The position numbers were made by a program, and so were the translations under genes. Positions 28,459 to 47,341 of a DNA stretch of 64,000 nt are shown here, one piece after another. Under the pieces are notes generated by a model that was not told the origin of the DNA, did not search any database, and was given only the letters and a program-made list of their open reading frames with translations. Positions within the stretch are counted from its first letter, which is position 1; every line of letters begins with the position of its first letter. Source of the stretch: Aquabacterium sp. (lineage in GTDB: Bacteria; Pseudomonadota; Gammaproteobacteria; Burkholderiales; Burkholderiaceae_C); the NCBI RefSeq assembly GCF_016234775.1, contig NZ_JACRAH010000036.1:62001-126000 (forward strand), written 5' to 3'.

Positions 28459-29736
28459 TCAAAGGGACAGCACTTCCACCCTGTTGCGGCCCTGTTGTTT
28501 GGCCTTGTAGAGGGCCGAGTCCGCCGCAGCAATCAACGCTTCTTCTTTCAGATCAGGCCGCACCTGGCAGGTGGCCACGCCCATGCTGGCCGTGACCGAG
28601 GCGGCCGTGTCCGAGTCCTCATGGGGGATGCCCAGTTCGACGATGGCCTGCCTGACGCGTTCCGCAGCCTTCAGGGCGATGTCGCCATCGGCATGGGGAA
28701 GCACGGCAATGAACTCCTCGCCACCATAGCGCGCTACCAGATCGCCGGGGCGGCGCAGCTTGTCTTGCAGCGCTTGCGCAACCCGCATCAGGCACTGGTC
28801 GCCAGCAGGGTGGCCATAGCGGTCGTTGAAGCGCTTGAAGTGGTCAACGTCCAGCATGATGATGGCCACCGTGTCGCCATCATGGCGAGCACGTTGCCAG
28901 GTCTGTTGCAGGTACTGCTGGAAGTGGCGGCGGTTGAACAGGCCGGTTAGCACATCCATGCGTGACAGTTGCTGCAAACGGGCTTGCACACTGCTCAGAT
29001 CCTGCAGCAGGTTCTTGCGCCGCAGTGACAGCAAGTACTGACGGCGCTCGTCGCGCTCCAGCGCATAGTTGGCCATGAGTGTGAACACGACGGTCGCGCC
29101 CAGCAAGGCCACCATGGGCACGATGAGCCGCTGGTTGAAAAGCGGCACGGTCAGCACACCAACGATGTGGATGGCATAGACCATCAACGAGAAGGCCAGG
29201 GCATACCAGAAGCGCAAACGCTGCACCATGTTGCCGTACATGATCACCACCATCAGCCCGACATGGTAGTACTGGCTGTTGGGGGCGCGACTGATCGAGA
29301 GGATGTAGCCCAGGCTGGCGCCGGCCAGCACGCCACTGAGCATAACGAGGTACTCCAGGGCAGAGGGGGGGATACGGCGAGGCACCTGATGGCGCAGCAG
29401 CCATGCGAGTCCGAGGAGGGCAAGGGCGAATGGCGTGAACCACAGCAGGCGAACCTTGACGGACAGCAGGAACACATCCGGCACCATCAGGTAGTCGCCC
29501 AGCAGAAAGCCATTGAAGACAAACAGTGACAGCAGCCCGCTGATCAGAAAGTAGCGCATGCGGCGCGGGGCGCCGTCGTTGAGAAACTGCTTTTCCAGCG
29601 TGGGTGGAAAGCGCATCCACGACAGGCCGCGATCAAATTGGGAGGACGCCTCGTTGACTTCGCTGCGTGCAACACGGCCTGTAGGCTGGATGGCCCGTCG
29701 TGGCGGCAACCGGAGGCCTTTTGGGGTGCTGACCAT
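28459..29736 (-). CDS. Membrane diguanylate cyclase
   Basis: A 425-residue protein. About six transmembrane helices occupy residues 60–235, a short coiled-coil follows, and a GGDEF domain fills about 265–425. The active-site motif is GGEEF (338–342), so it should make cyclic di-GMP. An inhibitory I-site RPGD (329–332) lies five residues before it, suggesting product inhibition. The ATG at 29736 is two bases after the stop of the upstream cyclase gene, so the pair is coupled. No EAL domain is present. Confidence 0.9.
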   Translation of the reverse strand: MVSTPKGLRLPPRRAIQPTGRVARSEVNEASSQFDRGLSWMRFPPTLEKQFLNDGAPRRMRYFLISGLLSLFVFNGFLLGDYLMVPDVFLLSVKVRLLWFTPFALALLGLAWLLRHQVPRRIPPSALEYLVMLSGVLAGASLGYILSISRAPNSQYYHVGLMVVIMYGNMVQRLRFWYALAFSLMVYAIHIVGVLTVPLFNQRLIVPMVALLGATVVFTLMANYALERDERRQYLLSLRRKNLLQDLSSVQARLQQLSRMDVLTGLFNRRHFQQYLQQTWQRARHDGDTVAIIMLDVDHFKRFNDRYGHPAGDQCLMRVAQALQDKLRRPGDLVARYGGEEFIAVLPHADGDIALKAAERVRQAIVELGIPHEDSDTAASVTASMGVATCQVRPDLKEEALIAAADSALYKAKQQGRNRVEVLSL

Positions 29737-29738
29737 GG

Positions 29739-31043
29739 CTAGCTCGCCTCCCCGAATGCCTGGGCCTGATTGCGGCCGTTGGCCTTGGCCTGATACAACG
29801 CCTCGTCGGCCTGAGCCAGCAGCCGGATGGTGCTGGCGCCAGGCTCGTTGGCGCGCAGGCAGGCGACTCCAACGCTGATGGTCACGCGATCCTGGGTGAG
29901 GGACGCGGCATGTGGCCGGGCCAGTTCCCACACTGCTGTGCGCACGCGCTGTGCTGCGGCCAAAGCCTCGGCCAGCGTGGTGCAACTGAGGATGGCAATG
30001 AACTCTTCGCCGCCAAAGCGCGCCACCAGGTCGCCTGGGCGGCGCAGGGACCGGGCCATGGTGGATGCCACCTCCTTGAGGCAGGCGTCGCCTACCGGGT
30101 GTCCATAGTGATCGTTGTAGAGCTTGAAATGGTCGATGTCCATCATCAGTACGGCGACCGATGTGCCGTCGCGCGCACAGCGAGACCACACCTGACCTAC
30201 GAACTCATCGAAATGCCGGCGATTGGCGATTTCAGTCAGGGGGTCAAAACGTGTGATCTGGTCCAGGCGCTGGTTGCCACGTTCCAGCTTGTCCAGCAAC
30301 TGATGTTCGTGTTGCAGCATCAACCAGTTGGTGCGCTCCTCGCGTTCCAGCCCGTAACTGTTATACAGCGTGAACAGCGTGGTCGAGACCATGATAAGTG
30401 ACTGGCCGACCATGACAGGGACATTTGGGTTGGGAATACACAGTGCCGCGCCCGCAAACAGTGCCAGGACGATCACGTCGATCTGCATGGCTCGCCAGAA
30501 GCGCATGCGCGTGACGCCGCCATTGAACAGCACGATCATGCTGAGCGTGACCAGATAGGGCCCAGCCAGTTCGTCGGTGCTGCTGATGCACAGATAACAG
30601 TGGACACTGGCTGACAACACACTGTTGATGAGTCCTGTCCAGTCCTGCCAAAGCGAGGGCACTTTTTGCAGGAAGGCTGCGCTGAGGCCCAGAACGGGCA
30701 CCAGGAACAGCAAGCGCCATTGTGTGGCAGCGGTGAAGCGGTCGGGCACCATGATCCAGTCGGTGTACAGCAAGGCGCCCGCGAGGATCAGGCCGAGGAA
30801 TGCGCCAATGCGCAGCAGACGCACGCGTTCCGGTGCCGTGTCTTGCTGAAAGCGCACTTCCATCTCGGCCGGAAAGCGCAAACCCAGAAAGCCTTGCTGC
30901 AACACGGCCTCGAAATCACCGAGCGCCGACTGGTGCGCTTCTGACCCACCGGCGTGGCCAACGCCCTCATCCTCATCGACTCCGCAAGAGGATGAGGATG
31001 AGGGCGGGGTGTTGGGCGGTGAGGAGTCAGCCAGTTCAGTCAT
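29739..31043 (-). CDS. Membrane diguanylate cyclase, paralogue of the downstream gene
   Basis: A 434-residue protein built like its neighbour: an N-terminal cytoplasmic stretch with a poly-Ser and acidic run (about 15–30), about six transmembrane helices (75–245), a linker and a GGDEF domain. GGEEF is at 344–348 and the I-site RPGD at 335–338, so activity with feedback inhibition is expected. The Met at 31043 is chosen; an in-frame ATG 15 codons upstream is possible because neither has a clear ribosome-binding site. The two genes are probably an old tandem duplication. Confidence 0.88.
   Translation of the reverse strand: MTELADSSPPNTPPSSSSSCGVDEDEGVGHAGGSEAHQSALGDFEAVLQQGFLGLRFPAEMEVRFQQDTAPERVRLLRIGAFLGLILAGALLYTDWIMVPDRFTAATQWRLLFLVPVLGLSAAFLQKVPSLWQDWTGLINSVLSASVHCYLCISSTDELAGPYLVTLSMIVLFNGGVTRMRFWRAMQIDVIVLALFAGAALCIPNPNVPVMVGQSLIMVSTTLFTLYNSYGLEREERTNWLMLQHEHQLLDKLERGNQRLDQITRFDPLTEIANRRHFDEFVGQVWSRCARDGTSVAVLMMDIDHFKLYNDHYGHPVGDACLKEVASTMARSLRRPGDLVARFGGEEFIAILSCTTLAEALAAAQRVRTAVWELARPHAASLTQDRVTISVGVACLRANEPGASTIRLLAQADEALYQAKANGRNQAQAFGEAS
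30963..31005. repeat. Perfect 15-bp inverted repeat inside the cyclase N-terminus
   Basis: GCCCTCATCCTCATC (30963..30977) is the exact complement of GATGAGGATGAGGGC (30991..31005), with a 13-base loop holding a further CTC/GAG pair. It falls at codons 13–27 of the diguanylate cyclase gene and encodes the poly-Ser and Asp/Glu run. In the mRNA it would form a very stable hairpin shortly after the start codon. Confidence 0.7.
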
Positions 31044-31192
31044 GCGACAGCGATGCCCGTGCCGATTGGACGCACGGGCGTTGCCCATGTTTTCGGCCCC
31101 GGCGAGGGCGGCTTGACGCGATTGTCCCCTCGGGTATTGGCATGTGGCGTGACGCATCTCACGTCACGAAGTCTTATGCGATGAATTGACGG

Positions 31193-32444: not shown

Positions 32445-34460
32445 TCAACCCAGCTTGAAGCGCGAGGCCTGCTCAGCCAGCTTCAGGCTCTGGTGGCGTA
32501 ATTCCTTGGCGGCATGGGCCACCTGTACGACCAGATCGCTGGTCTTGTCGCTGTTGTCATTGACCGTGTGCAAGGTATTGGTCATGAGTTCGGCGTTGCT
32601 GCGGCCATTGGCCGTCACATCGGCCAGTTTGCTCAGAATCCGTCCCATCTCGTTCACATTGGCCTCCGTCGAAAGTACGGCCTCCACGGTTCCCCGGGCG
32701 ATTTCCTGCCCTTGCGCGATCTCGTTGGTGGAGTCGCCCACGACCTTGTTGATCTGTGCGGCGGCATCTGCCACCCGCTGGGCCAGGCTGCGAACCTCGC
32801 TGGCGACTACCGCAAAGCCCTTGCCCGCCGTGCCAGCCTTGGCAGCTTCGACGGATGCATTGAGTGCGAGCAGGTTGGTCTGAAAGGCAATGCCGTCGAT
32901 CAGGCTGACGATCTTGCCGATCTCCCGGCTGCGACCTTGCAGGCTGTCGATCACGTCTGCCAGATGGGTCATGGCGCGTCGGCTGCGGCCCGCATCGGCC
33001 GTGACATCCCGGGCGCGGTCCACAGCTTGTGCCACGCATTGCTGGTTGGCCTCCAGGTAATCCAGGGTCGCGGCAATGCCCTGCTGGAGGCCGGACATGG
33101 CTTCGCTGGCATGCTGAATACGCTGGGCCAGATCCTCGCTGGCGGTGGAAATGTCGCCGGATGCGTGTGAAACCGATGCGACGCCGCGTCGTACGACGGT
33201 GAACAGGTCAGCCAGCCGCGACAGCGAGGTGCGCAGACTGCGCAGGGTCTGGGCAACCTCGTCCTCGCCGAGCGCCGCTGCACGGCTGGAAAGGTCGCCT
33301 CTGGCCATCCGGGCGACTTCGGACTGGATCAGTTGCATGCCGCCGCGCATCACCCTGGAGAAGGCTGTCATCACGTAGATGGCCATGACCACCCCCAGCA
33401 GCACCATCGCAGAAAGCCAGCTCATGCGCTTGCCTACCTGTGCCTCATTGAGGGTCAGCGAAGCATCGAGTTGGGCCAGACAGTCTTCGCGGAGCCGTTG
33501 CACTTCCTTGTGGACATCTTGGGAAGTCACATGGGCCTGCGCCATGTCGACCGTGGCATTGGCATCCAGCGCGAAGGCACGCATGTCCTTGGCGAATTGC
33601 TCGCCGTTGGTGAACACGGGTTCCGATCCCTTGACGCACTGCATCCCTGACAGGTTGGTGATGCGGCTTGCATGCCCCTTGATGTGGGCCAGCGTTTCCT
33701 TGACGTCGTCTGCGGCAAGGAGTGTGGGTTCGATGGCGCTCCCCCCACGGTCAGCATCTTTGAGCAAGCCAATCAATCGGGCATGCAATTGGTAGAGAGC
33801 CTCGTCCAGATGGGGTAGCAAATCGGTTGCCAGTTCGCCGACGAGGTGTATGTGCTGATTCTGGCTGACGTTCAGATGAGCGCCATCACTGACGACGGTG
33901 CTCAGTTGGCGAGCGAGCTCGATGAATGCCGTGTGCATCTCGGCCCGTGTCTTGTTGGCGGGGGGCGGTGCATTCAGATGAACGTAGGCTTGGCTGAGCC
34001 TATGCCATGCCTCTTTGGATGAGAGCTTGTCGCCGAGTTGGTCTTGCGCATCTGCCAGGCGCTGGTAGCTGCTTTCGATATCCCGCAGCCATTGGGCATC
34101 GGCGGCCTTGTCCAGCTCTGCCTTGGTGTTTTCCAGGGCGGAACGCCGGGGAATGACGGCCGTGATCAGCTTGTCGATCTTGTGGACGTAATCCCAGCCC
34201 TCACGCTGAAGCTGGGCTCTTTGGTAGTCGTGCCACTGGTCGCTCAACTGAACGCTGACGACAAAACTGGTCGGGACGGCAAAGGCCGCCGCCACCAGCA
34301 AAGCCTTGTAGCGGAAGTTCACATCCCGCATGAGGCGCACCAGTGGCGCGAGCACGCCGTGATAACGGAAGTACTCCCTGAACGCAGACACGACATTTCC
34401 CTGGCGCCAGATCGCCATCCGCTGGCCCCATTGGGCCGGGAGCTTGAAGGGTTGCGTCAT
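32445..34460 (-). CDS. Methyl-accepting chemotaxis protein
   Basis: A 671-residue receptor. A cytoplasmic N-terminus of about 50 residues precedes TM1 (about 52–72). A helical periplasmic sensor domain runs to about 350, then TM2 (around 355–375), a HAMP-like region and the signalling domain. The tip is [21 protein letters not shown]. No C-terminal docking tag is present (it ends SRFKLG). The ligand is unknown. It is transcribed away from the main chemosensory cluster and has a good FliA-type promoter at 34521..34547. Confidence 0.9.
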
Positions 34461-34709: not shown

Positions 34710-35861
34710 ATGGCATCTCAAGCATCCACGGATTCCAATCCGAATGACGGCGCCACCTCTGCCCAGAACTCGGGTAGTTGGGCGCCAGCCGTGATGGCAT
34801 CTTGCCTGGTCATGCTGGCCGCTCAATCTGTGACGTGGACGGATGTCAGTCCCCTTGTCACCGGTGGTCTGGGCGCACTGGTCACCTTGTTTGTCATTCG
34901 CTTGATGACCCGATTTCCTGGCGGGCTGCAAGTGGCACCGCCGTCCAATGGTGCCCCGCTGGTGGGCGAGGTTCTGCCCGTCTGGCGCCGCCAGATTGAC
35001 AGTGCGCGCAGTCACTCTGAAGAGAGCGTGGGCAATATCCTTGCTTCATTTGGCTCCATTTCAGGGCGCCTGGATCAGGCCATTCAGATGACGCAAGGCA
35101 ATCAATTGTCCTTGAGCAGTCACAGCGCTGACGAGATGGTTCAGCGCAACGAAGCAGCCTTGCTTCAAATGCTGGAACCCATGCGCGAGGCCATGCAGGC
35201 CAGAGACCAGGTCTACGCCAAGCTGGACATGCTCAGCGAGGCCATGAGCGATCTTCGCCAGATTTCCTTGCAGATCAAGCAACTCGCCCGCCGGACCAAT
35301 ATGGTGGCCCTGAACGCCTCTGTAGAGGCCAGTCGCGCTGGCGAGCGTGGCAGCGGCTTCATGGTGGTGGCGCAAGAAGTGCGTCAACTGGCCACGCAGT
35401 CTGGTGATGCGGCCAACAAGATGATGTCACGCACTAACGGCATTGACCTCGAACTGCAGGAGCTGCGCAATCGCGCAGCAGCACAGGACAGCAGCGATGA
35501 GGCCCTGCGTGATCAGGCCGCCGCGAATGCACGGCAGGTGATCAGCGGCCTCTTGAACAGCCTTGGCGACATGAATCGCTCATCGCGCGAGCTGCAGGAA
35601 GCCGGCGCGGCCGTACATGACGAGTTCGAACGCGTGTTGATGAACTTCCAGACACAGGATCGCCTCAGCCAGATGCTGTGTTGCGTGATGGATGACATCA
35701 ACCGATTGAACGATTGGTTGCAGCAAGGCGGTGACCTGAGTGCCGCTCAGGCCGGCGAATGGCTGGCAAGACTGGACGCGAGCTACACGATGGAAGAGCA
35801 GCGGTCAGAACATCATGGCAACACTTCCATCCAGCGGGAAACCGCCGTTGAGTTTTTCTAA
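34710..35861 (+). CDS. MCP-like protein with CheZ-like C-terminal motif
   Basis: A 383-residue protein. Two hydrophobic segments lie near residues 28–45 and 48–65. A diverged MCP signalling tip follows ([21 protein letters not shown], near residue 195–215). The C-terminal part (about 285–345) is a long amphipathic helix containing Q316-D317-R-L-S-Q321, the same Asp/Gln spacing as the catalytic QDLTGQ motif of the CheY phosphatase CheZ. It ends in AVEFF. cheY begins 15 bases downstream and no cheZ gene is in the cluster. I infer a receptor-like scaffold that may also dephosphorylate CheY. It could instead be only a cytoplasm-facing receptor. Confidence 0.75.
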
Positions 35862-35875
35862 AGGGACTCACCACC

Positions 35876-36241
35876 ATGAGCAAGACTATTCTCATCATCG
35901 ACGACTCTGGCAGCTTTCGACAGGTCGTGAAGATGGCCCTTCAAAAGGCCAGCTATGAGGTTGTGGAAGCGGTTGACGGGAAGGATGCCTGCGCCAAGCT
36001 GGACGGACGCAAGCTCAACCTGATCGTCTGTGACGTCAACATGCCCAATATGGATGGCCTGGCTTTCGTCAAGCACCTCAAGACGACGAACTACAAGTTC
36101 ACGCCGGTGATCATGTTGACGACGGAGTCTCAGGAATCCAAGAAGGCCGAAGGTCGCGCTGCGGGCGTTCGCGCCTGGGTGACCAAGCCGTTCCAGCCTT
36201 CACAGCTGGTGGATGCCGTGGCCAAGCTCTGCGCAGCCTGA
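35876..36241 (+). CDS. cheY: Chemotaxis response regulator CheY
   Basis: A 121-residue single receiver domain. Asp9-Asp10 form the acidic pocket, Asp53 is the phosphoacceptor (IVCDVNMPN), with MLTTES and VTKPFQP carrying the Thr and Lys switch residues. Phosphorylated by the cluster's CheA, it would act on the flagellar motor or another output. It sits between the MCP/CheZ-like gene and the STAS gene in one operon. Confidence 0.92.
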   Translation: MSKTILIIDDSGSFRQVVKMALQKASYEVVEAVDGKDACAKLDGRKLNLIVCDVNMPNMDGLAFVKHLKTTNYKFTPVIMLTTESQESKKAEGRAAGVRAWVTKPFQPSQLVDAVAKLCAA

Positions 36242-36262: not shown

Positions 36263-36559
36263 ATGACGACGACAGCAGCCTGCCTGGCAGGTGAGTGGAC
36301 CATACACGCCATTGCCCAGCAGCGAGAAGCCATGCTGGCCCTGGTCAATGACGGACATATCGCGTTCGACACCTCAGGCATCACGGACATGGACAGCGCG
36401 GGCTTGCAGCTTTTGCTGTCAGCGCAGCGCAGCGTGGCCCTGCAGGGTCAGGAGCTCAAGCTGCTGCAGTTGAGCAACGCCGTCAAAAGTGTGCTGGCGG
36501 TCTATGGACTGGATGCGAGTCTGCATTCGATCCATCCCGAAGAAGAGGTGGTGGAATGA
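36263..36559 (+). CDS. STAS-domain protein (anti-sigma factor antagonist-like)
   Basis: A 98-residue STAS domain. ITDMDSAGLQLLLSAQR is the family signature with Ser45 as the likely phosphorylated residue. STAS proteins occur in several chemosensory clusters of gammaproteobacteria between cheY and cheA, with an unsettled role. The stop codon overlaps the cheA start (ATGA), so the two are translationally coupled. Confidence 0.85.
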   Translation: MTTTAACLAGEWTIHAIAQQREAMLALVNDGHIAFDTSGITDMDSAGLQLLLSAQRSVALQGQELKLLQLSNAVKSVLAVYGLDASLHSIHPEEEVVE

Positions 36560-38715
36560 GTCAGATCGATCCAAGTGATGAAGAGATCCTGGCCATAGCC
36601 AGAGAGGGCTTTCTGGATGAGGCTCGTGAGATGCTTCGTCAGTTCGAAGAATCCCTGCTGGCGCTGGATGATGATCCAGGAGATCAGGAAACCCTGAACT
36701 CCGCCTTCCGTGCGGCGCATACGATCAAGGGTACGGCCGGCTTGTTCGGGTGTGATCGTGTCGTGGCCTTCACGCACGATGTCGAAACCCTGCTGGAGGC
36801 GGTTCGCTCTGGCCAATATCAGCTCAATGAAGAGGCCATGGCGCTGCTGCTGAGCAGTCGCGATCAGATGGAGGCCTTGCTGGGCGATGTCAGTTCGGCC
36901 ACGGGTGATCCGGATCTCCAAGCCATGAGCAAGGAGTTGAGCGCCGACTTGCGCGCACTGCTGGGTGGCTCTGGCGAGAAGAAGGCAGATGCCGCGGGCG
37001 CGTCCGTTACCTCCGCTCTGGCCGAGCAGGCTGGATCAGATCGCTTGTGGCGCATCTGGGTTCAGTTCGGCCGCGATGCCTTGCGCAATGGTCTGGATCC
37101 GTTGTCCTTCTTGCGTTACCTGTCAACGCAAGGTGAGATCCGCAAGGTCAAGGTGCTGTCCAGCCAGGTACCGGATTTGCAAGCCCTGGATGCGGAAGAG
37201 TGCTACCTTGGTTTCGAAGCGCATTACCACACCAGCGGAGACCGAGAGGCCATTGCCAGCGTGTTCGAGTTCGCCGTAGATGACTGCGAGCTGCACATCG
37301 ACCCCTTGTCGCCAAGCCCCGGTATCGACGTTGCTGCTGTCATTGCCGTGACGGCAGAACTGGTGGAAGATGCCGAGGCCGATGTCGTGACTGTCGCCGA
37401 GGTGGTGGATGAGGCTCAGCCGGCCGATCGACGCGCGGCATCCGGCGATCGCCGAAAGTCTTCGCGCGATCGCCGCAGTGACGAGACGCGATTCGTGCGC
37501 GTGCAAGCTGACAAACTTGATCGCCTGATTGACCTGGTAGGCGAGTTGGTGATTGCAAGCTCGGGTGCCCAGTTGGTGGCCCAGCAAGAGGGTTCCAGTA
37601 CGTTTGCCGAAGCCGCCCTGCGTATTCGCACGCTGGTTGAATCGGCAAGAGATGGCGCATTGGCGTTGCGCATGGTCCCTATCGGTGAAACCTTCGCGCG
37701 CTTCCATCGCGTGGTGCGGGACGTGAGCAAGCAACTGGGCAAGCAAGTCGAATTGCAGATCACGGGCGCAGACACCGAACTGGACAAGTCCATGGTCGAG
37801 GTGATTGCCGATCCGCTGATGCATCTGGTTCGTAACAGCCTGGATCATGGTCTGGAGACTACCGAGGAGCGTCTTGCCGCGGGCAAGCCCGAGCGCGGCG
37901 TGATCGCGCTGCACGCCTACCATGAGGGTGGGCAGGTGATGATCGAGGTCACCGATGATGGCCGAGGTCTCAATCGCGAGCGCATCTTGAAGAAGGCCAT
38001 CGAGCGTGGTCTGGTTCGTGTGGATCAGGTCTTGTCTGATCACGAGATTGACCAGTTGATCTGCGCTCCCGGCTTTTCTACTGCAGATCAGGTCACGGAC
38101 ATCTCAGGCCGCGGCGTGGGCATGGATGTGGTCAAGCGCAGCATTGAATCTTTGCGCGGCCAGATGCAACTGGCCAGCGAATGGGGCCGCGGCACGACCA
38201 CCCAGATCCGCCTGCCGCTGACCTTGGCCATCATCGATGGTTTCCTGACCAGTGTAGGCAGTACTTACTACGTGCTGCCCATGGAAATCGTTTCGGAGTG
38301 CATCGAGGTGCCGCCTGAATGTGGCCTGAGCCCCGATGCCGGTGTGGGTTATTTCAACCTGCGTGGTGAAGTGCTGCCCTACTTCGACATTGCCTTGCTG
38401 CACAAGGTCAAGCCCGCGCTCAACGGGCGACGCAGCCTGGTTGTGGCAAGGGATGGCAATACTCGCATTGGCTTGATTGTGGACAAATTACACGGCGAAT
38501 ACCAGACCGTGATCAAACCGCTGAGCAGTCTTTTCCGTCATCTGCGTGCCATCGCTGGCTCCACCATCCTGGGGTCTGGCGACGTGGCGCTCGTGCTGGA
38601 TGTGCCCGCGCTGGTCAGCTATGCAGTGGAGGCCACCCGACCGGGCGGCGGCGGGCGCACACCGTTCAGTTTGAACTCAAACGGCAGTACCGAGCAGGTC
38701 CAGCGGATCAGCTGA
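36556..38715 (+). CDS. cheA: Chemotaxis histidine kinase CheA
   Basis: A 719-residue CheA. Domain order: HPt with phosphorylated His55 (AAHTIKGTAG), a P2-like region with CheY-binding strands (about 155–250), a charged linker with RRKSSRDRR (about 300), dimerisation helices, the ATPase domain (N box with Asn427, DDGRGL, GRGVGMD) and a CheW-like C-terminal domain. It would phosphorylate CheY and CheB of this cluster under receptor control. It follows the STAS gene with a 4-base overlap. Confidence 0.95.
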   Translation: MSQIDPSDEEILAIAREGFLDEAREMLRQFEESLLALDDDPGDQETLNSAFRAAHTIKGTAGLFGCDRVVAFTHDVETLLEAVRSGQYQLNEEAMALLLSSRDQMEALLGDVSSATGDPDLQAMSKELSADLRALLGGSGEKKADAAGASVTSALAEQAGSDRLWRIWVQFGRDALRNGLDPLSFLRYLSTQGEIRKVKVLSSQVPDLQALDAEECYLGFEAHYHTSGDREAIASVFEFAVDDCELHIDPLSPSPGIDVAAVIAVTAELVEDAEADVVTVAEVVDEAQPADRRAASGDRRKSSRDRRSDETRFVRVQADKLDRLIDLVGELVIASSGAQLVAQQEGSSTFAEAALRIRTLVESARDGALALRMVPIGETFARFHRVVRDVSKQLGKQVELQITGADTELDKSMVEVIADPLMHLVRNSLDHGLETTEERLAAGKPERGVIALHAYHEGGQVMIEVTDDGRGLNRERILKKAIERGLVRVDQVLSDHEIDQLICAPGFSTADQVTDISGRGVGMDVVKRSIESLRGQMQLASEWGRGTTTQIRLPLTLAIIDGFLTSVGSTYYVLPMEIVSECIEVPPECGLSPDAGVGYFNLRGEVLPYFDIALLHKVKPALNGRRSLVVARDGNTRIGLIVDKLHGEYQTVIKPLSSLFRHLRAIAGSTILGSGDVALVLDVPALVSYAVEATRPGGGGRTPFSLNSNGSTEQVQRIS

Positions 38716-38748: not shown

Positions 38749-41364
38749 ATGCGTACCAACCTTCCCATTACTCAGCAAGAGTACGTGCTCCGCGACGGGG
38801 CCACGATCGTTTCCAAAACAGATCTCAAAGGCAAGATCACCTACATCAACGATGACTTCCTGGAAGCCAGCGGTTTCACGACGCCGGAGTTGATCGGTCA
38901 GCCCCACAACCTGGTGCGGCACCCGGACATGCCGGAAGAGGCCTTTGCCGACCTGTGGAAGACGTTGCAGGCAGGCAAGCCCTGGACGGGCCTGGTCAAG
39001 AACCGCCGAAAGAATGGTGACCACTATTGGGTGGTAGCCAACGCCACGCCCATCCGTGAGGGCAATTCGGTGACCGGCTACATGTCGGTTCGCACGCGCC
39101 CTACGCGTGAACAGATTGAGGCCGCCGATGGCCTCTACAAGCTGTTCAAGGAAGGGAAGGCCAGCGGCTGGGCCATTGTGGAAGGCAACGGTGTGCGAAC
39201 GGGCGTGCTGGCCAATCTCAACGTATTTGGCAAGATGTGGGCGAATGCTGGCATCGGCTCCAAGGTCGCCATGCTGGGCGGTTTGTCCGCCTTGACCGTC
39301 GCCGGCGCGGTATGTGCTGCGTTGCACCCGAGTGCGGTCACAATGGCTTCGCCCGTGTTCACGGGCTTGCTGACCCTCTTTGGAGGCTACAAATTGAGTG
39401 CCCGTCTAGGCGGCATGCTCAAGGCCGCTGAAGCGCATCTGGAGCGCTATGGTCAGGGCAGTTTTGATGGCATCGTGGCGTCCGACGGGCATGATCAGGC
39501 ATCCGCCATGATGATGTCCCTGCGTCGTGTTCAGACCCGCTTGGGCTTCGAGTTTGCGGATACGAAGAAGCGGGCAGAGGCCACCGCGCGCATCCAGCAA
39601 GCGCTTGATGTGGCGGCCACCAACATGATGGTGGCGGATGCCGACTACAACATCATCTACGCCAACGCGTCTCTCAACGAGATGCTCAAAGTGGCTGAAG
39701 CCGATATCCGCAAGGATTTGCCACGCTTTGATTCGTCGCGCCTGCTGGGCACGAACATCGACGAGTTCCACAAGAACCCGGCACATCAACGTGGTTTGCT
39801 GGATCGACTCAATCAGACGCACAACACGCGCCTGACCGTGGGTGGCCGTCGCTTTGACCTGATCCTCAATCCCATCAAGGGTGAGGACGGAAAGAGGTTA
39901 GGCGTGGTCGTTGAGTGGAAGGACATGACCGACATCCTGGCAGCGCAAGAGCGCGAACAGAAGCTGGCTGCCGAAAATTCACGAGTGAAGCAGGCGCTGG
40001 ATACCTGCTCGACCAACGTCATGATCGCCGATGCCGATGGCAACATCGTGTACACGAACACGTCGGTCGTGGCCATGATGCGCCGCAACGAATCCGAGCT
40101 GCGCAAGTCGCTGCCCCAATTCAACGCAAACCGCATAGTGGGTACCAACTTCGACAGTTTCCACAAGAACCCTGCGCACCAGCGCAATCTGCTGGGTAGC
40201 CTCAAGAGCGAATACAAGACGCAAATCAAGGTCGAGGGCCTGATCTTCGCCTTGACTGCCAACCCCATCAACGACGAGCAGGGCAATCGCCTTGGCACCG
40301 TGGTGGAATGGAAGGATCGCACAGCTGAAGTCAACGCTGAAAACGAGATCAGCAATCTGGTCAATGGTGCGACGCAGGGCGATTTCTCGCAACGCATGGT
40401 GCTGGAAGGCAAGGAGCCCTTCTTCCGCCTGATGGGTGAGAAGTTCAATGACCTGATCGACACGGTGAGCAAGACCATCGTCGAGGTGCGTGTGGCGGCC
40501 GAGCAGTTGACCTCAGCGTCTGGGCAGGTGTCTGAAACATCGCAATCGCTGTCCCAGTCGGCTGCCTCGCAAGCTGCCAGCGTGGAGCAAACCAGCGCCT
40601 CTTTGCAGGAAATGGCCGCCTCGGTCAAGCAGAACGCCGACAGCGCCATGGTGACAGACGGCATGGCCACCAAGGCGGCACAGGAGGCCATGGAAGGCGG
40701 TGAGGCCGTGACCCGTACTGTGGAAGCGATGCAGGAAATCGCCAAGAAGATCTCCATCATCGATGACATCGCCTACCAGACCAACCTGCTGGCGCTGAAT
40801 GCGGCCATTGAAGCCGCTCGTGCGGGTGAGCATGGCCGTGGTTTTGCTGTGGTGGCGGCTGAAGTGCGCAAACTGGCCGAGCGAAGCCAGGTGGCTGCGC
40901 AGGAGATCGGTCAGTTGGCTGGTTCCAGCGTGAACCTGGCCGTGAAGGCCGGTGATTTGCTCAAGCAGATGGTGCCTTCCATCCACAAGACCAGCGAGCT
41001 GGTGCAGGAGATTGCGGCGGCATCTGGGGAACAGTCCGATGGCGTGGCCCAGATCAATGGCGCCATGGACCACCTCAACGGTGCTACCCAGCAAAACGCA
41101 TCGGCTGCCGAGCAACTGTCGGCTACATCCGAAGAGCTGTCCGCGCAAGCAACGGAGTTGCAGAGCCTGATGGCCTATTTCAAGCTCAAGGACGAGCAGG
41201 GCCATCGTTCATCTTCCCCTGCAACGCAGAACCACATGGCGACCACGACGAGCCGACCCAACGCACCGGCCCGTCCGAATGCGGCGCCGCATCGTCAAAC
41301 CACCTCCATGGCTCAACCCGGGGCGCATGCCGACGTGGATGAGTCGCACTTTGCCCACTTTTAA
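38749..41364 (+). CDS. PAS-containing methyl-accepting chemotaxis protein (Aer-like N-terminus)
   Basis: An 871-residue receptor. An Aer-type PAS domain (about 20–110, with HPDMPEEAFADLW) precedes two hydrophobic helices (about 175–215) and a HAMP-like stretch. Two further PAS domains follow (about 280–405 and 410–545), each with the FHKNPAHQR motif (about 340 and 471). The signalling domain has the tip [20 protein letters not shown] (about 675–695). It ends in DESHFAHF. The N-terminal PAS suggests redox or energy sensing; the ligand is inferred only. It is a paralogue of the next gene. Confidence 0.9.
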   Translation: MRTNLPITQQEYVLRDGATIVSKTDLKGKITYINDDFLEASGFTTPELIGQPHNLVRHPDMPEEAFADLWKTLQAGKPWTGLVKNRRKNGDHYWVVANATPIREGNSVTGYMSVRTRPTREQIEAADGLYKLFKEGKASGWAIVEGNGVRTGVLANLNVFGKMWANAGIGSKVAMLGGLSALTVAGAVCAALHPSAVTMASPVFTGLLTLFGGYKLSARLGGMLKAAEAHLERYGQGSFDGIVASDGHDQASAMMMSLRRVQTRLGFEFADTKKRAEATARIQQALDVAATNMMVADADYNIIYANASLNEMLKVAEADIRKDLPRFDSSRLLGTNIDEFHKNPAHQRGLLDRLNQTHNTRLTVGGRRFDLILNPIKGEDGKRLGVVVEWKDMTDILAAQEREQKLAAENSRVKQALDTCSTNVMIADADGNIVYTNTSVVAMMRRNESELRKSLPQFNANRIVGTNFDSFHKNPAHQRNLLGSLKSEYKTQIKVEGLIFALTANPINDEQGNRLGTVVEWKDRTAEVNAENEISNLVNGATQGDFSQRMVLEGKEPFFRLMGEKFNDLIDTVSKTIVEVRVAAEQLTSASGQVSETSQSLSQSAASQAASVEQTSASLQEMAASVKQNADSAMVTDGMATKAAQEAMEGGEAVTRTVEAMQEIAKKISIIDDIAYQTNLLALNAAIEAARAGEHGRGFAVVAAEVRKLAERSQVAAQEIGQLAGSSVNLAVKAGDLLKQMVPSIHKTSELVQEIAAASGEQSDGVAQINGAMDHLNGATQQNASAAEQLSATSEELSAQATELQSLMAYFKLKDEQGHRSSSPATQNHMATTTSRPNAPARPNAAPHRQTTSMAQPGAHADVDESHFAHF

Positions 41365-41406
41365 TTCGGCCCCATCAGCTGAGCAGACCTTCAGGAGTCC
41401 ATCACC

Positions 41407-44358
41407 ATGAATTCGATCTTGTCCAGAATGATGTTGTGGCAGAAGTTTGCCCTACTCGCCAGCATCGGGGCAGTCCTTTGCGCTGTGCCCACTGCGCTGT
41501 ATTTGACGGCCACGCAGGCCAGCATCAACAGTACACGTCTGGAAATATCGGGCGCTGAGGTGATCAAGGTGATGCTGCCACTCACGGATGCCATCAACCA
41601 TGCCAAGGTGGTGCCCGAGACCAGCCCGGATCACAACAGCACCTGGAACAAGATGGGGTCACAGATTGACGCCATTGATGCGGCCCTGAAGTTGCACAAG
41701 GGCGATCTGGATCTGGCTGCCGATATCGGTGAGGTCAAGGGCACGTACGCCACCCTGCAGACAGAGTTGCAAAAGGTGGGGCGCACATCCGAAAAGGCTG
41801 AGAACGCGCTGGCAGAAAGCGTGAGCGGCCTGATCTCTCAGACGCTGGACAAGAGCGGTCTTACCCTGGACCCTGATGGCGATTCGTATTACATGATGGC
41901 CTTGACGACGGACATCATGCTGCAGGTTGGCGACTACTTCAGCCGCACGCAGCAAGCCAACGACAGCCTGGCGTCAACTGAGCGCGGCAATGCCTTGCTC
42001 GCCAAGCAGGCTTACGCCGAGCGCTACTTCGCACAGGTCCACGTCGAGGAAATCCAGGAATTGGCCAACAAGGTGGTGAGGTTCAACCCCGGTCTGAAGA
42101 CCGAGGTGGACGTCACGAAGCTGGTCGATCAACTGCATGCCACCTTGGATTTGGCTGAAAAGGTACTGGCCAGCGACAAGCCTGAACTGGGTGAGCAAAA
42201 GGCGCTCTCTGCGCGTTTGGCGCAAGATGTGCAGGCCCTGCGGGTTGCACGCGATCCGGGGGTGACGGTGTTGATCCGTTTGCTCAATGAACGTGAAGGC
42301 CGACTGACCCAGTCTCGGCTGTTCCTGACCGGAGGGTTGTTGGCTTTGATCCTGATCGCCGTGGCCATGGGTTTCGCGGTGGTTCGTTCGGTGACCAGGC
42401 CCATTGTTCGCGCCATCGGTGCAGCCAATGCGGTCAAGGATGGTCAGCTCGATGGTGTGATCGACATTCAGGGCACCGACGAGTCTGCGCAACTGCTCAC
42501 CGCCATCAAGGGTATGCAGGTCAGCTTGCGTGAGCGCAATCAACGTGATGCCATCGTGTTGGCCGAGAACACTCGCATCCGCCAGGCATTGGACGTGGCC
42601 ACGACCAATGTGATGGTGGCCGATGGCGACTACAACATCGTGTATGCCAATGAGGCACTCAAGGGCATGCTCAAGGTCGCGGAATCTGATCTGCGCAAGG
42701 ACCTGCCAAGGTTTGATTCGGCTCGTGTCATTGGCAGCAACATTGACGAGTTCCACAAGAACCCTGCCCATCAGCGAGGCATGTTGGATCGCTTGTCCAG
42801 CACCCATGTGACGCGACTGACCATCGGTGGTCGCCGTTTCGATCTGACCGTCAACCCGATTCGTGATCAGCGTGGCGAGCGCCTGGGCATGGTCGTGGAG
42901 TGGAAGGACATGACCGAAGTCCTGGCTGCGCAAGAACGTGAACACAAGCAGGCGGCAGAAAATGCCCGCGTCAAACAGGCCCTGGATACCTGCTCGACCA
43001 ACGTGATGATTGCCGATGCCGATGGCAACATCATCTACACCAATGCTTCCGTGATGGCGATGCTCGGCCGCAATGAAGCCGAGTTGCGCAAGACCCTGCC
43101 GCAGTTCGCCGCGAGCCGTGTGGTGGGCAGCAACTTTGACAGCTTCCACAAGAACCCGGCGCACCAGCGTAATTTGCTGGGCATGATCAAGGGTGAGCAC
43201 AAGTCGCAAATCAAGGTGGGCACGCTGCACTTCAGCCTGATCGCCAATCCGATCAGCGATGAGAAGGGTGTCCGTCTGGGTACGGTTGTCGAGTGGAAGG
43301 ACCGCACCGCCGAGGTGCTGGCCGAACAGGAAGTGACCGATCTGGTGGATGGCGCCACGCAAGGCGACTTCTCCCGCCGCATGGCATTGGAAGGCAAGGA
43401 GCCCTTCTTCCGTCTGATGGGCGAAAAGTTCAATGACCTGATCGACACGGTCAGCAAGACCATCGTGGAGGTGCGCGTCTCTGCCGAGCAGTTGACGTCT
43501 GCAGCCAACCAGGTGTCGGAAACCTCTCAGTCCTTGTCGCAGTCTGCTGCTTCACAAGCGGCCAGTGTGGAGCAGACGAGTGCTTCGTTGCAGGAAATGG
43601 CCGCGTCCGTCAAGCAGAACGCCGACAGCGCCATGGTCACCGATGGCATGGCCACCAAGGCAGCCAAGGAGGCGATGGAAGGTGGTGATGCCGTGACACG
43701 TACGGTAGACGCCATGCAGGAAATTGCCAAGAAGATCTCGATCATTGATGACATTGCCTACCAGACCAACCTGTTGGCCTTGAATGCCGCTATCGAAGCG
43801 GCACGAGCCGGCGAACACGGCCGCGGCTTTGCCGTGGTGGCCGCTGAAGTGCGCAAGCTGGCAGAACGCAGCCAGGTGGCTGCGCAGGAAATCGGTCAGT
43901 TGGCTGGCTCCAGCGTGAACCTGGCAGAAAAGGCTGGCGATTTGCTCAAGCAGATGGTGCCGTCGATCAACAAGACCAGCGAGCTGGTTCAGGAGATTGC
44001 CGCCGCATCGGGCGAGCAGTCCGATGGTGTGGCGCAGATCACCGGTGCGATGGATCACCTCAACGGCGCCACGCAGCAAAACGCATCGGCGGCCGAGCAG
44101 TTGTCGGCCACGTCGGAAGAACTGTCGGCGCAGGCCACGCAGTTGCAAGGCTTGATGGGCTACTTCAAGTTGAGGGAAGAGGCCGGTGGCGCTCGCCAGC
44201 CACGGGAGGCACGCCCCGCAGCAACGAGCAGCAATCGCCCGATGGCCTCGGCCCGACCCGCATCCAACAGCGGCCGCGTGGGTCAGTCTTCGCCCAATAT
44301 GGCCAACAGACATGCCAGTTCGGATGCCGTTGATGAATCCCACTTTGCTCACTTCTGA
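41407..44358 (+). CDS. Transmembrane PAS-containing methyl-accepting chemotaxis protein
   Basis: A 983-residue receptor. TM1 (about 12–32), a helical periplasmic domain to about 300, TM2 (about 303–325) and HAMP are followed by two PAS domains (about 395–520 and 525–650) with the same FHKNPAHQR motif, then a signalling domain and the C-terminus DESHFAHF. From the PAS region to the end it is close to the preceding receptor, so the two share a cytoplasmic half but have different sensor ends. Both probably signal through the cluster's CheA/CheW. Confidence 0.9.
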
Positions 44359-44360
44359 TC

Positions 44361-44900
44361 ATGGACACGACACTGCCAGCCGTCCTGGATGCGGCGCCCT
44401 CATCCAGTCAAGTTGAGCTGATTGCGGCCAAGCAGTACCTGTGCCTGGCTGTAGGCCGGGAGACCTATGCCGTTGGCATTGACATGGTGCGCGAGATCCT
44501 GGAGGTGGGGCGCATGACGCCGCTCCCCCTGACACCAGAGTTTGTTCGCGGGGTGATGAACCTGCGCGGCGCGGTGGTGCCCGTGATCGATCTGAAGGCC
44601 CGCTTTGGAGCCGAGCAGGCCGTGATCGGCCGGCGCAGCAGTGTGGTGATCGTGGAGACCGATCACAAGGATCAGGATGGACCCCTGGTGGTCGGCGTCT
44701 TGGTGGATGGTGTCTCCGAGGTGCTGGAGATCGCCGATCAGGACATCGAACCGGTGCCTGCACTGGGCACGCGCATTCCGCGCGAATTTCTACAAGGCAT
44801 GGCCAAAGCCAAGGGCACTTTGCTGTCAATTCTGGATGCCGATCGCATCCTGGCACGCGACACCATGGCCACACTGATCGCGGGCCACATCACACACTGA
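44361..44900 (+). CDS. cheW: Chemotaxis adaptor CheW
   Basis: A 179-residue SH3-like adaptor linking receptors to CheA. AKQYLCLAVGRETYAVGIDMVREILE opens the domain. RGVMNLRGAVVPVIDLKARFG is the CheW core and GVLVDGVSEVLEI a later strand. It begins two bases after the receptor stop codon. It is the only CheW in the window, so the neighbouring receptors probably share it. Confidence 0.94.
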   Translation: MDTTLPAVLDAAPSSSQVELIAAKQYLCLAVGRETYAVGIDMVREILEVGRMTPLPLTPEFVRGVMNLRGAVVPVIDLKARFGAEQAVIGRRSSVVIVETDHKDQDGPLVVGVLVDGVSEVLEIADQDIEPVPALGTRIPREFLQGMAKAKGTLLSILDADRILARDTMATLIAGHITH

Positions 44901-44948: not shown

Positions 44949-45743
44949 ATGCAACTGTCAGAACGCTCCTTCAACGTGGTGGCCGAGGTGTTTCACCGTG
45001 TATCCGGCATACGCCTGGTGCCGGCCAAGCGCCAACTGGTCATCGGACGCTTGCAGAAGCTGGCGTCCGAAAAGGGCCTGAGCAGCCTGGACGAATATGT
45101 CGACAAAGTCATCAAGGCCGGTGATGAGTCCGAGCTCGTTCGCGTGGTGGACCGACTGACCACCAACGAGACCTATTTTTTCCGCGAACCCGCTCATTTC
45201 GAGTTTCTGGCGGAACTGGTTGCCAAACGTCGCCCGGGCCAGGAGTTCCGGGTATGGAGCGCGGCCAGCTCATCGGGTGAAGAGGCCTACAGCATCGCCA
45301 TGCTGCTGGCCGACAAGATCGGGCCCAGCGGATGGAAGATCGTGGGAACCGACCTGTCTACCGCCATGGTGGATGCAGCCCGCAAAGCCTTGTATCCCAT
45401 GGAGCGTGCACGCAATACCAGTGCGCAATACCTCAAGCGCTTTTGCATGAGAGGCTCTGGCCCTTACGATGGGCAACTGCTGGTGAGCAAGGAGCTTCGT
45501 GCCAATGTGAGTTTCGAGCAGGCCAATCTGATGCAGCCTTTGCCAGACATCGGCAAGTTCGATGTCGTGTTCCTGCGCAATGTGCTGATCTACTTCGAGC
45601 CCGATGCCAAGCTGGACATCGTGCGCCGCGTGTCCCCTCTGATCAAGCCGGGTGGCTACCTGTTCACGGGGCATTCCGAATCGCTGAGCAACCTGCCGAC
45701 TGGCCTGACCAACGTGAAGCCTGCCGTCTATGCTAGAACTTGA
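44949..45743 (+). CDS. cheR: Chemotaxis protein methyltransferase CheR
   Basis: Methylates receptor glutamates with S-adenosylmethionine. The 264 residues have an N-terminal helical domain and a Rossmann-like C-terminal domain with RVWSAASSSGEEAYSIAM as the SAM-binding part, FREPAHF and FDVVFLRNVLIYFEP. It is the length of E. coli CheR and should contain the beta-subdomain that binds receptor C-terminal peptides. It overlaps cheD by 14 bases. Confidence 0.94.
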   Translation: MQLSERSFNVVAEVFHRVSGIRLVPAKRQLVIGRLQKLASEKGLSSLDEYVDKVIKAGDESELVRVVDRLTTNETYFFREPAHFEFLAELVAKRRPGQEFRVWSAASSSGEEAYSIAMLLADKIGPSGWKIVGTDLSTAMVDAARKALYPMERARNTSAQYLKRFCMRGSGPYDGQLLVSKELRANVSFEQANLMQPLPDIGKFDVVFLRNVLIYFEPDAKLDIVRRVSPLIKPGGYLFTGHSESLSNLPTGLTNVKPAVYART

Positions 45744-46257
45744 CAGCAAGGGCCCAGCCCGCATCAAACATCACAGCGGCGAGAAGGTCTTCCTTCTGCC
45801 GGGGCAGTGGTACTTCGGTCATACAGGTGCCACGGTCAAGACCTTGCTCGGTTCGTGCATTGCCGTCACCTTGTGGCATCCCAAGCGTCACATGGGGGGC
45901 ATGTGTCACTTTTTGTTGCCTACGCGCCCGCGCACCCCGGACGGCTCGCTCGACGGCCGTTTCGGCGACGAAGCGGTGGAGCTGCTGGCGCATGAAATCA
46001 AGAAATCAGGCACCAAAACCCAGGATTACGAAGTACACCTTTACGGTGGAGCTGACACCATGCCTGATCAGGCCAAGGTGAAGTTCAACATCGGCGAGCG
46101 CAACGTGGAGAAAGCCTGGGAGATCATCGACAAGTATGGCTTCCAGCTCCAGTGTGTCGACGTCGGTGGCAACGAACCGCGCAACGTGACGATTGATCTG
46201 ACCAATGGCCAGGTGGTATTGAGGCGCGGCAATCCCCATACAGCCAGGAAAGGGTGA
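45730..46257 (+). CDS. cheD: Chemoreceptor glutamine deamidase CheD
   Basis: Deamidates receptor glutamines to glutamates and modulates signalling. The 175-residue protein has the catalytic pair Cys43 ([11 protein letters not shown]) and His60 (GGMCHFLLP), with Thr in the following region. The overlap with cheR and the 4-base gap to cheB show one operon. Its presence fits the cheY–STAS–cheA–cheW–cheR–cheD–cheB cluster type. Confidence 0.94.
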
Positions 46258-46261
46258 TCTC

Positions 46262-47341
46262 ATGAGCGAGATCAAGGTCATGATCGTTGACGACTCGGCC
46301 ATTGTGCGCAAGCACCTGGGCGATGTGCTGACCAAGGCGGGCATTCATGTCATCGCCACGGCGGCCGACCCCTTGTTTGCCATGCAGCGCATGAAGACCA
46401 ACTGGCCAGACGTGTTGGTGCTGGACGTCGAGATGCCGCGCATGGACGGCATCACCTTTCTCAAGCAGGTGATGGCAGAGCGCCCGACACCCGTCGTGAT
46501 GTGCTCCACCCTGACGGAGAAAGGCGGCCAGACCACCATGCAGGCTCTGGCTGCGGGCGCGGTGAGCTTTGTCACCAAGCCCAAGATGGGTTTGAAGGAC
46601 TTTCTGGAAGACGACAGCAATGGCATTGTGAATGCCGTGCGTGCCGCTGCCAAGGCCAATATGTCTGCCCTCAGGCGGGCCACCCCAGGCCTGCCCAAGC
46701 CTGGCGCGGCGCGCGCTGCGGTGGTCGCGTCGCCTCAGGAGGCCATGGCAGAAACCACCGATCGCGTGATCGCTGTGGCCATTTCGACTGGTGGGGTACA
46801 GACCATTGAAGCCGTGTTGACCAGGCTGCCCCGAACGGTGCCCGGCATGGTCATCGTGCAGCACATGCCGCCCAACTTCACCGCCAGCCTGGCTGCCCGC
46901 CTCAACGGCTTGTGTGATCTGGAAGTCATGGAAGCAAAAGATGGTGATCGTGTCATCAACGGTCGTGTACTTTTCGCCCCTGGCGGCAGGCACATGCGCC
47001 TCAAGCGCAGTGGTGCGCAGTACGTGGTGGAAGTCTTTGATGGCCCCTTGGTGAATCACCACAGGCCCAATGCCGATGTCTTGCTCAAGTCCGTGGCGCA
47101 ATGCGCCGGCAGGAATGCGATCGGTGTGGTCATGACCGGCATGGGTGACGACGGTGCGCGTGGCCTTCGAGAGATGTTCAATGCGGGTGCCAGAACGGCG
47201 GCACAGGATGAGGCCAGTTGCGTGGTGTTCGGCATGCCCAGAGAAGCGATCAAACATGGTGGGGCGCAGCAGGTCGTCAGCCTGGATGACATGCCATCCT
47301 GGCTCATGGCCGCGGCACGATCGGTCGTGGCCAGCGCTTGA
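46262..47341 (+). CDS. cheB: Chemotaxis methylesterase/glutamine deamidase CheB
   Basis: Removes methyl groups from receptors when phosphorylated. The 359-residue protein has a receiver domain with Asp55 ([13 protein letters not shown]), a linker, then the esterase domain (about 165–355). The catalytic Ser is in [10 protein letters not shown], His in [18 protein letters not shown] and Asp in [11 protein letters not shown]. It closes the core che operon. Confidence 0.95.

Follow-up and report, generated by a model that had tools for sequence, protein, structure and literature searches.

How is the response regulator CheY switched off in chemotaxis clusters that hold no cheZ? In stages 1 and 2 as outlined by Ortega et al. 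(2020, PMC7184735), F7 and F6 clusters both have cheY, and the paper gives cheZ for F6 clusters only. In the same paper, the role of the conserved C-terminus of McpA-like receptors is described as 'important yet unclear'. The question is raised by a locus of Aquabacterium sp. that lies in a window of 64,000 nucleotides (RefSeq assembly GCF_016234775.1, contig NZ_JACRAH010000036.1, positions 62,001 to 126,000 of the forward strand), and window coordinates below refer to this whole stretch. A sequence-only reading of the window had proposed that an MCP-like protein with a CheZ-type motif stands in place of a cheZ gene, and its interpretation is partly supported by the present analysis. We consider it likely that the protein is a putative membrane-anchored, receptor-shaped phosphatase of the CheZ type for the adjoining CheY. 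This reading is based on the conservation of the motif, an in-register similarity to CheZ that survives masking, the position of cheY directly downstream, the absence of CheZ from clusters that hold the module, and two natural losses that separate the receptor hairpin from the module.

Architecture of the MCP-like protein and its gene cluster

The gene at 34710-35861 on the plus strand encodes an MCP-like protein of 383 residues (P0001) with a PF00015 domain, and Q316-D317-R-L-S-Q321 is present where the sequence-only reading had placed it. The protein begins with a hydrophobic, probably membrane-spanning segment (residues ~23-43; 34776-34838) and a second hydrophobic segment (residues ~44-69; 34839-34916), both called by the Kyte-Doolittle method in 19-residue windows above 1.3 and with approximate borders. 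There is no room between these two segments for a periplasmic ligand-binding domain. No sensing domain was found, and MCPsignal is the only domain over the Pfam cut-off in the 383-residue protein. A conserved PVWRRQI element (residues 90-96; 34977-34997), invariant in five sequences, precedes the MCP signalling hairpin of residues 164-307 (35199-35630). The hairpin matches PF00015 with an E-value of 7.4e-21 and 75.2 bits against a cut-off of 34.6, and its tip is kept among 22 related sequences at N202 (21 sequences), E206 (22), R209 (18) and E223 (21). We take the role of these tip residues to be contact with CheA and CheW.

The hairpin is followed by a C-terminal module that consists of an FQDxxxQ helix, a linker and a terminal xFF or ELF peptide. 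In the window protein, the helix carries Q314-x-x-D317-x-x-x-Q321 (35649-35672), which reads Q314-T-Q-D317-R-L-S-Q321 and which conservation and profile alignment mark as a CheZ-like putative catalytic motif. Downstream lie a YTMEEQR element (residues 359-365; 35784-35804), with Y359 in 21 of the 22 aligned sequences, and a tail of residues 376-383 (35835-35858), which ends in AVEFF, has F383 in 21 of 22 and is a probable tether. The tail was also considered as a CheR pentapeptide and rejected, as AVEFF does not match x-[HFYW]-x-x-[HFYW]. Structure models from a single sequence and from five sequences were both poor (pLDDT 53-54); the AF2 monomer from the five-sequence input shows helices at residues 137-258 and 265-338 at a mean pLDDT of only 53.8.

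As the sequence-only reading had also stated, the gene stands directly upstream of cheY. The proposed substrate is a stand-alone receiver protein with PF00072 only (35876-36241), and it is followed on the same strand by genes for a STAS-domain protein (36263-36559; PF13466/PF01740) and a CheA with Hpt, H-kinase_dim, HATPase_c and CheW domains (36556-38715). Two PAS-containing MCPs (38749-41364 and 41407-44358), CheW (44361-44900), CheR (44949-45743), CheD (45730-46257) and CheB (46262-47341) complete the series, all named by Pfam and all on the plus strand. The tandem PAS-containing MCPs (38749-44358) have C-terminal halves that are very alike, and their SHFAHF ends fit the CheR-pentapeptide pattern. 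On the opposite strand, a divergent MCP gene (32445-34460) adjoins the module gene, and an MCP-type ORF is found at the equivalent place in loci L032, L033, L034 and also L039. Upstream of the cluster, two adjacent membrane GGDEF-type ORFs, named by eye, occupy 28459-31157 on the minus strand.

Conservation of the motif across the family

Is the motif a chance arrangement of acid and amide residues? Relatives were gathered by a whole-protein search of 60 genomes and a contig scan (five loci). At a cut of E 5e-16, which was chosen after the motifs had been inspected and with a query that itself holds the motif, the 22 distinct sequences in the full-length score ranking (the window protein and 21 relatives) keep D317 in 22/22, Q321 in 21/22, Q314 in 21/22 and Q316 in 20/22. 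Above a natural gap in the whole-protein scores (95 versus 61 bits), D317 is kept in 18 of 18 sequences, Q321 and Q314 in 17 of 18 each, and Q316 in 16 of 18. The single Q321 miss among the 22 sequences is L039. In degree of conservation, D317 is on a par with the part of the hairpin tip that contacts CheA, and few other columns do as well.

A profile of the C-terminal part, built from motif-bearing sequences, retrieved 63 non-redundant non-CheZ proteins. Q-x-x-D-x-x-x-Q is intact in 61 of them, and L039 and L113 are the exceptions. The MCP tip, recognized by pattern, is present in 46 of these 63 proteins and absent from 17. Redundancy was removed on the basis of the last 70-80 residues only. 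In this wider family, the residue directly before the aspartate (Q316 here) varies, and the glutamine three residues before it (Q314 here) is kept. Of the residues in the motif first proposed, D317 and Q321 are conserved among the orthologues and in the wider family, and Q314 rather than Q316 is the kept glutamine before the aspartate. In a survey of the phylum, the module profile matched in 165 of 398 genomes, and all 30 listed loci proved on inspection to be module proteins; the remaining matches may include CheZ. The motif and the module are a real, conserved and widespread feature, and the motif is not the product of chance.

The device belongs to a widespread family that includes MCP-free proteins. 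Ten solitary proteins of 183-282 residues (L100, L102-L109 and L112) end in an acidic ELF peptide and contain FQFYDRLSQ or a sequence close to it, and PDLDWSQ occurs near the N-terminus in nine of the ten. The module profile retained these proteins as family members, and those scanned reached no Pfam or NCBIfam cut-off. Some of them, such as L103, lie in che clusters, and several others, among them L102 and L106, are without a che neighbour in the stretch examined. A further arrangement is found at L042:1763-5268 (genome G011), where a receiver, a module-bearing MCP, a receiver and a second module-bearing MCP follow one another in tandem.

In-register similarity to CheZ

Does the module resemble CheZ beyond the motif? 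For the window protein, no PF04344 match was listed at a maximum E-value of 10, a setting at which the HMMER filters drop most matches above ~0.1. Among ten family members scanned with Pfam, CheZ was found in three (E 4.9e-5, 1.7e-4 and 8.1e-4; 19.8-23.7 bits against a cut-off of 30.7), and the other seven gave no CheZ match below 0.1. Across 185 genomes of the class, PF04344 was over its cut-off in 75 genomes and gave nine further matches below it. Five of these nine are module proteins (E 3e-6 to 4e-4), including four MCP-like ones (E 3e-6, 7e-5, 1.5e-4 and 4e-4) and a fifth, G070:C63 (E 6.5e-5), that has QFQDISRQ at a contig end, stop codons in the matched frame and a missing tail. In the reverse direction, 53 of the 185 genomes had a module-profile match at E <=0.01, and six of the weakest matches are places listed as CheZ (E 6e-4 to 7e-3).

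Several other candidates were discarded. L082 and L083 (E 1.5e-4 and 8e-4) are ordinary MCPs without the module, L079 and L081 have no D...Q at all, and a Vibrio match (H5, L136) and a Halomonas match (H4, L139) were ordinary MCPs on inspection. Since two ordinary MCPs match the CheZ profile, a helical hairpin alone can give E-values of 1e-4 to 8e-4.

Profile-profile alignment with hhalign addressed the motif region itself. The windows of FF-type members (those with the xFF end), ELF-type members and CheZ were anchored on Q..D...Q or D[LI]TGQ, and those columns are invariant by construction. Forty-four FF-type windows aligned with 30 CheZ windows over 57 columns without offset (probability 89.5, P 2e-6). 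With eight motif columns masked in both sets the P-value was 1.8e-4, and with 14 columns masked it was 6e-4, each again without offset. The 23 columns around the motif alone gave P 3.7e-6, which is most of the FF-CheZ signal. Reversed windows gave P 0.04, five column shuffles 0.04-0.6 and 16 ordinary MCPs 0.12-0.5, and 12 ordinary MCPs in a separate profile test showed no CheZ similarity; single-pair P-values of this kind are rough, and 16 or 12 ordinary MCPs are a small control. ELF-type proteins with a hairpin aligned with CheZ at P 2e-5 (6e-3 with eight columns masked and 2e-3 with 14), and MCP-free ELF proteins did so at P 0.036, no better than the controls. FF and ELF modules, both anchored on the motif, aligned with each other at P 1.8e-15. 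Judged by sequence, the segment differs from a plain MCP coiled coil, in keeping with the earlier proposal: it is in register with CheZ even when masked, and ordinary MCPs are not.

The likeness extends to the surroundings of the motif. The hydrophobic pattern around it is alike in FF-type members and CheZ, and the distance from the aspartate to the C-terminal end has a median of 74 residues in FF-type members and 77 in CheZ (67 in the window protein). The phenylalanine and glutamine before the aspartate are found in 38 and 41 of 44 FF-type members, respectively. According to PMC7750401, the extended CheZ motif is AxxFQ-DxxxQ. The AxxFQ element is present in 25 of 30 CheZ sequences and in 10 of 44 FF-type members (26 of 44 for [AS]xxFQ). 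The window protein lacks it and has NFQTQ, with N and T instead of A and F at positions -5 and -2. LSSLGF ends 27 of 30 CheZ sequences, and the window protein ends in VEFF at a similar distance.

Could the similarity reflect nothing more than one antiparallel helical hairpin resembling another, with Q314, D317 and Q321 as a polar layer or kink in an MCP-type bundle? Glutamine layers do occur in MCP bundles, the 3-4 spacing of the three residues fits a heptad, both proteins are helical hairpins, and the two ordinary MCPs L082 and L083 did draw weak CheZ-profile matches. However, those two matches span CheZ residues 5-112 and 5-100, outside the active-site stretch, where the 16 ordinary MCPs show no CheZ similarity. 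In FF-type members, the residues at Q-3, D and Q+4 point away from the hydrophobic face, at angles of 147-173 degrees to it, and the hydrophobic moment from which these angles derive points to a Q/D/Q face that would be exposed. MCP-free proteins also keep all three residues, and the hairpin tip and the motif are lost independently, as described below. We therefore regard a purely structural role as very improbable.

A second alternative accepts the phosphatase function and proposes that the helix reached it by convergence, without homology to CheZ. DxxxQ also serves in NarX-type kinases of the HisKA_3 family (PMC3510030), and convergence is for this reason possible; the failure of the MCP-free ELF proteins to align with CheZ and the concentration of the FF signal in the columns around the motif would both be consistent with it. 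The in-register similarity that remains with 14 columns masked, in FF-type and in hairpin-bearing ELF-type proteins, and the like distance from the aspartate to the end in FF-type members and CheZ argue against it. Convergence is in our judgement unlikely, while keeping some appreciable weight.

Pairing with cheY and absence of CheZ

Genes with the FF-type module and an MCP tip are followed on their strand by cheY in 39 of 42 non-redundant cases, as against 1 of 41 ordinary MCPs (Fisher 6e-19), a non-random comparison group drawn from these loci. The lone exception among the ordinary MCPs, L041_2237, itself has HDVFKQ and an IELF end. Of the three FF-type misses, L094 has cheY ~300 bases further on, L042_3598 has it upstream, and L076 has none in its stretch. 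Neighbours were labelled by phmmer with the window's own proteins. In 41 of the 43 cases scored, the second residue after the phospho-aspartate of the neighbouring CheY is asparagine, as in E. coli CheY. Two named FF-type members, WP_320579541.1 (Pseudomonas sp. HR96) and WP_268015531.1 (Aeromonas sp. BC14), are annotated only as methyl-accepting chemotaxis protein, and each is followed by a response regulator, a STAS protein and CheA.

A true CheZ is missing from all 110 module-bearing loci, many of which are short or redundant. A further sample, of CheA stretches, was taken independently of the module. It comprises the 60 best non-own CheA matches (E 2.3e-10 or better) from 77 genomes of the class, in 59 stretches; weaker matches, many of them in frames of >1000 residues, were dropped. 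Twenty-four stretches have CheZ without the module (one of them with a further CheA cluster that has neither), 12 have the module without CheZ, and 23 have neither. Sixteen of these 23 show CheY, several of the sixteen are cut by contig ends, and the genomes of module-less stretches may carry the module elsewhere. The four FF-type members of the sample sit directly before cheY. CheZ and the module are mutually exclusive in this sample (Fisher 0.002), which is in part a consequence of cluster class. Not every cheZ-less cluster has the module, and the pairing with cheY is not universal outside the FF type.

What provides phosphatase activity in the organism itself? The genome searched has 68 contigs and is 94.7% complete, with the window on contig C20. 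Among the Pfam-named genes of the window's che cluster there is no CheZ, CheC or CheX, as had been claimed. CheC has no match in the 68 contigs, and the genome has three CheX-like matches, one of them over the cut-off, on contigs C35 and C27 rather than C20. One CheZ match exists in the genome (G000:C6:12546-13172), beside another cheY. The statement that the protein stands in place of cheZ is thus correct for the cluster and not for the genome; a true cheZ that might serve this CheY is present, but it is paired with a cheY of its own.

The same genome has five CheA matches. In the clusters on C20, C63 and C35, cheY lies beside cheA, with a STAS gene between them in two of the three, and in each a module gene is located directly upstream of that cheY. 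The module gene product on C35 has 155 residues and is without any MCP part. The CheA cluster on C16 shows neither cheY nor the module in the 18 kb examined; it is arranged as cheW-STAS-cheA-mcp-cheR-cheD-cheB-cheW-cheD (L179), with no cheY labelled and two cheD-like ORFs. The fifth CheA, in a frame of 2186 residues with its surroundings seen in part, is taken for the pilus type by its size. The hairpin-less module protein L116 on C29 (261 residues) has an element similar to PVWRRQI, and no che gene is labelled nearby.

CheD in many such clusters ends in DVELF, DIELF, EVELF or the like, as module proteins do (L140:9004-9648, L125, L129, L123 and L080; L181, L221-L225, L229 and L235). A module-type end is present in 5 of 15 CheD ORFs, a count that includes redundant and short loci, and also in eight stretches in which no module gene was found. 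The tail common to CheD and the module proteins suggests a common partner, perhaps CheY.

These observations bear on a third alternative, in which the Q/D/Q face and the tail would hold CheY near the array as a sink or scaffold without catalysis, and CheY would lose its phosphate unaided or through the distant CheZ. Mere binding would account equally well for the common tail ending and for cheY as the next gene, and a true CheZ is indeed encoded in the genome. That CheZ, however, sits with its own cheY, and a docking role explains neither the in-register similarity to CheZ nor the retention of an acid and an amide at a four-residue spacing next to a variable position just before the acid. Docking alone is thus quite unlikely in our assessment.

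Natural losses separate the hairpin from the module

Two proteins of genome G058 have taken opposite courses. In L040_3447, the MCP tip is lost, and QFQDRLNQ, YTMQDQR, VEFF and the adjoining cheY are kept. In L039_3773, the tip and the aspartate are kept, with proline at the position of Q321 and lysine at that of Q314; this protein is without YTxxEQR and without the FF end, and its cluster runs straight to cheA with no cheY between. The hairpin tip and the motif are lost independently.

A putative receptor-shaped phosphatase

How might the protein act? The two N-terminal helices would hold it in the membrane without a ligand-binding domain. The long antiparallel hairpin would dimerize into an MCP-like four-helix bundle, and the conserved tip would let the protein join the CheA-CheW array. 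Q314, D317 and Q321 would form a polar face on the helix that leads back, far from the tip. In CheZ, the acid and the amide of DxxxQ position a water molecule that attacks phospho-CheY (PMC3510030). In an analogous mechanism, D317 would contact the active site of CheY, and Q321 would orient the phosphate-removing water. The flexible linker and the terminal xFF peptide may catch CheY; the spacing between the aspartate and this tail is close to that for the CheY-binding tail of CheZ. Kinase and phosphatase would consequently sit on one array. With a sensing domain lacking, the protein more likely serves as a built-in sink than as a sensor, and it probably switches off the response regulator encoded alongside.

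The window protein and CheZ share a DxxxQ motif on helix two of a presumed hairpin, a comparable hydrophobic pattern around it, a neighbouring cheY, phenylalanine and glutamine before the aspartate in most FF-type members, and a similar distance from the aspartate to the C-terminal end. However, the window protein has an MCP hairpin with a CheA-contact tip and a membrane anchor and no PF04344 match, the module tail is xFF or ELF rather than LSSLGF, and the module is absent from the 24 sampled CheZ-bearing CheA clusters. The window protein is not CheZ, given the differences in PF04344, AxxFQ and the tail, but it most likely works like one. CheC, CheX and FliY are also auxiliary CheY phosphatases, but they use an ExxN motif and have a different fold; the genome has no CheC match, and its CheX-like matches are on other contigs. 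NarX (HisKA_3) uses DxxxQ to dephosphorylate its response regulator (PMC3510030), whereas the window protein is without kinase domains and has no HisKA_3 match in Pfam.

The closest described counterparts are the McpA-like receptors of F7 systems, such as P. aeruginosa PA0180/CttP and V. cholerae VCA1088 (PMC7184735). As characterized in that paper, they have an MCP hairpin, a membrane region, no sensing domain, no CheR pentapeptide, a conserved C-terminus and an adjoining che cluster without cheZ, as is the case here. The window protein likewise has a membrane region, an MCP domain and no CheR pentapeptide; two further marks of the group are a C-terminus in common with McpA, which the window protein may share, and grouping with PA0180 at E 1e-30. 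They differ in that ELF-ended members mostly have other residues before the aspartate and no YTxxEQR, and FF-type members are located upstream of cheY. In Vibrio sp. THAF191d, the cluster cheY-cheA-cheW-cheW-MCP-cheR-cheD-cheB is followed by a module gene whose product contains ALQFTDIIVQQ and ends in EGEVELF, with a weak module score (E 1e-3). Because this gene carries the module, the F7 position of the McpA-like gene holds the module there, and it appears from these sequences that the module family includes the McpA-like receptors of F7 systems. For VCA1088, a review notes no experimental reports (PMC7534058). In the open-access papers searched, we found no CheZ-like reading of an MCP or McpA-like protein and no phosphatase activity for one.

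Implications for cheZ-less clusters and the origin of CheZ

A broader proposal joins these lines, and we put it forward tentatively, as a prospect that falls somewhat short of even. The module may be the missing switch that turns CheY off in many cheZ-less clusters of Pseudomonadota, including those of the F7 McpA-like receptors, and CheZ may descend from such a receptor hairpin or share one ancestor with it. CheZ would then have lost the CheA-binding tip and the membrane anchor, and the hairpin-less L116 and L040 would show the step between receptor and CheZ. If this proposal is true, it would answer at once how the F7 clusters manage without cheZ and what the C-terminus of McpA-like receptors does. 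A class of receptors would be enzymes, with kinase and phosphatase in one array, and CheZ would have a root. The finding could thereby give a job to a receptor family whose function has been obscure.
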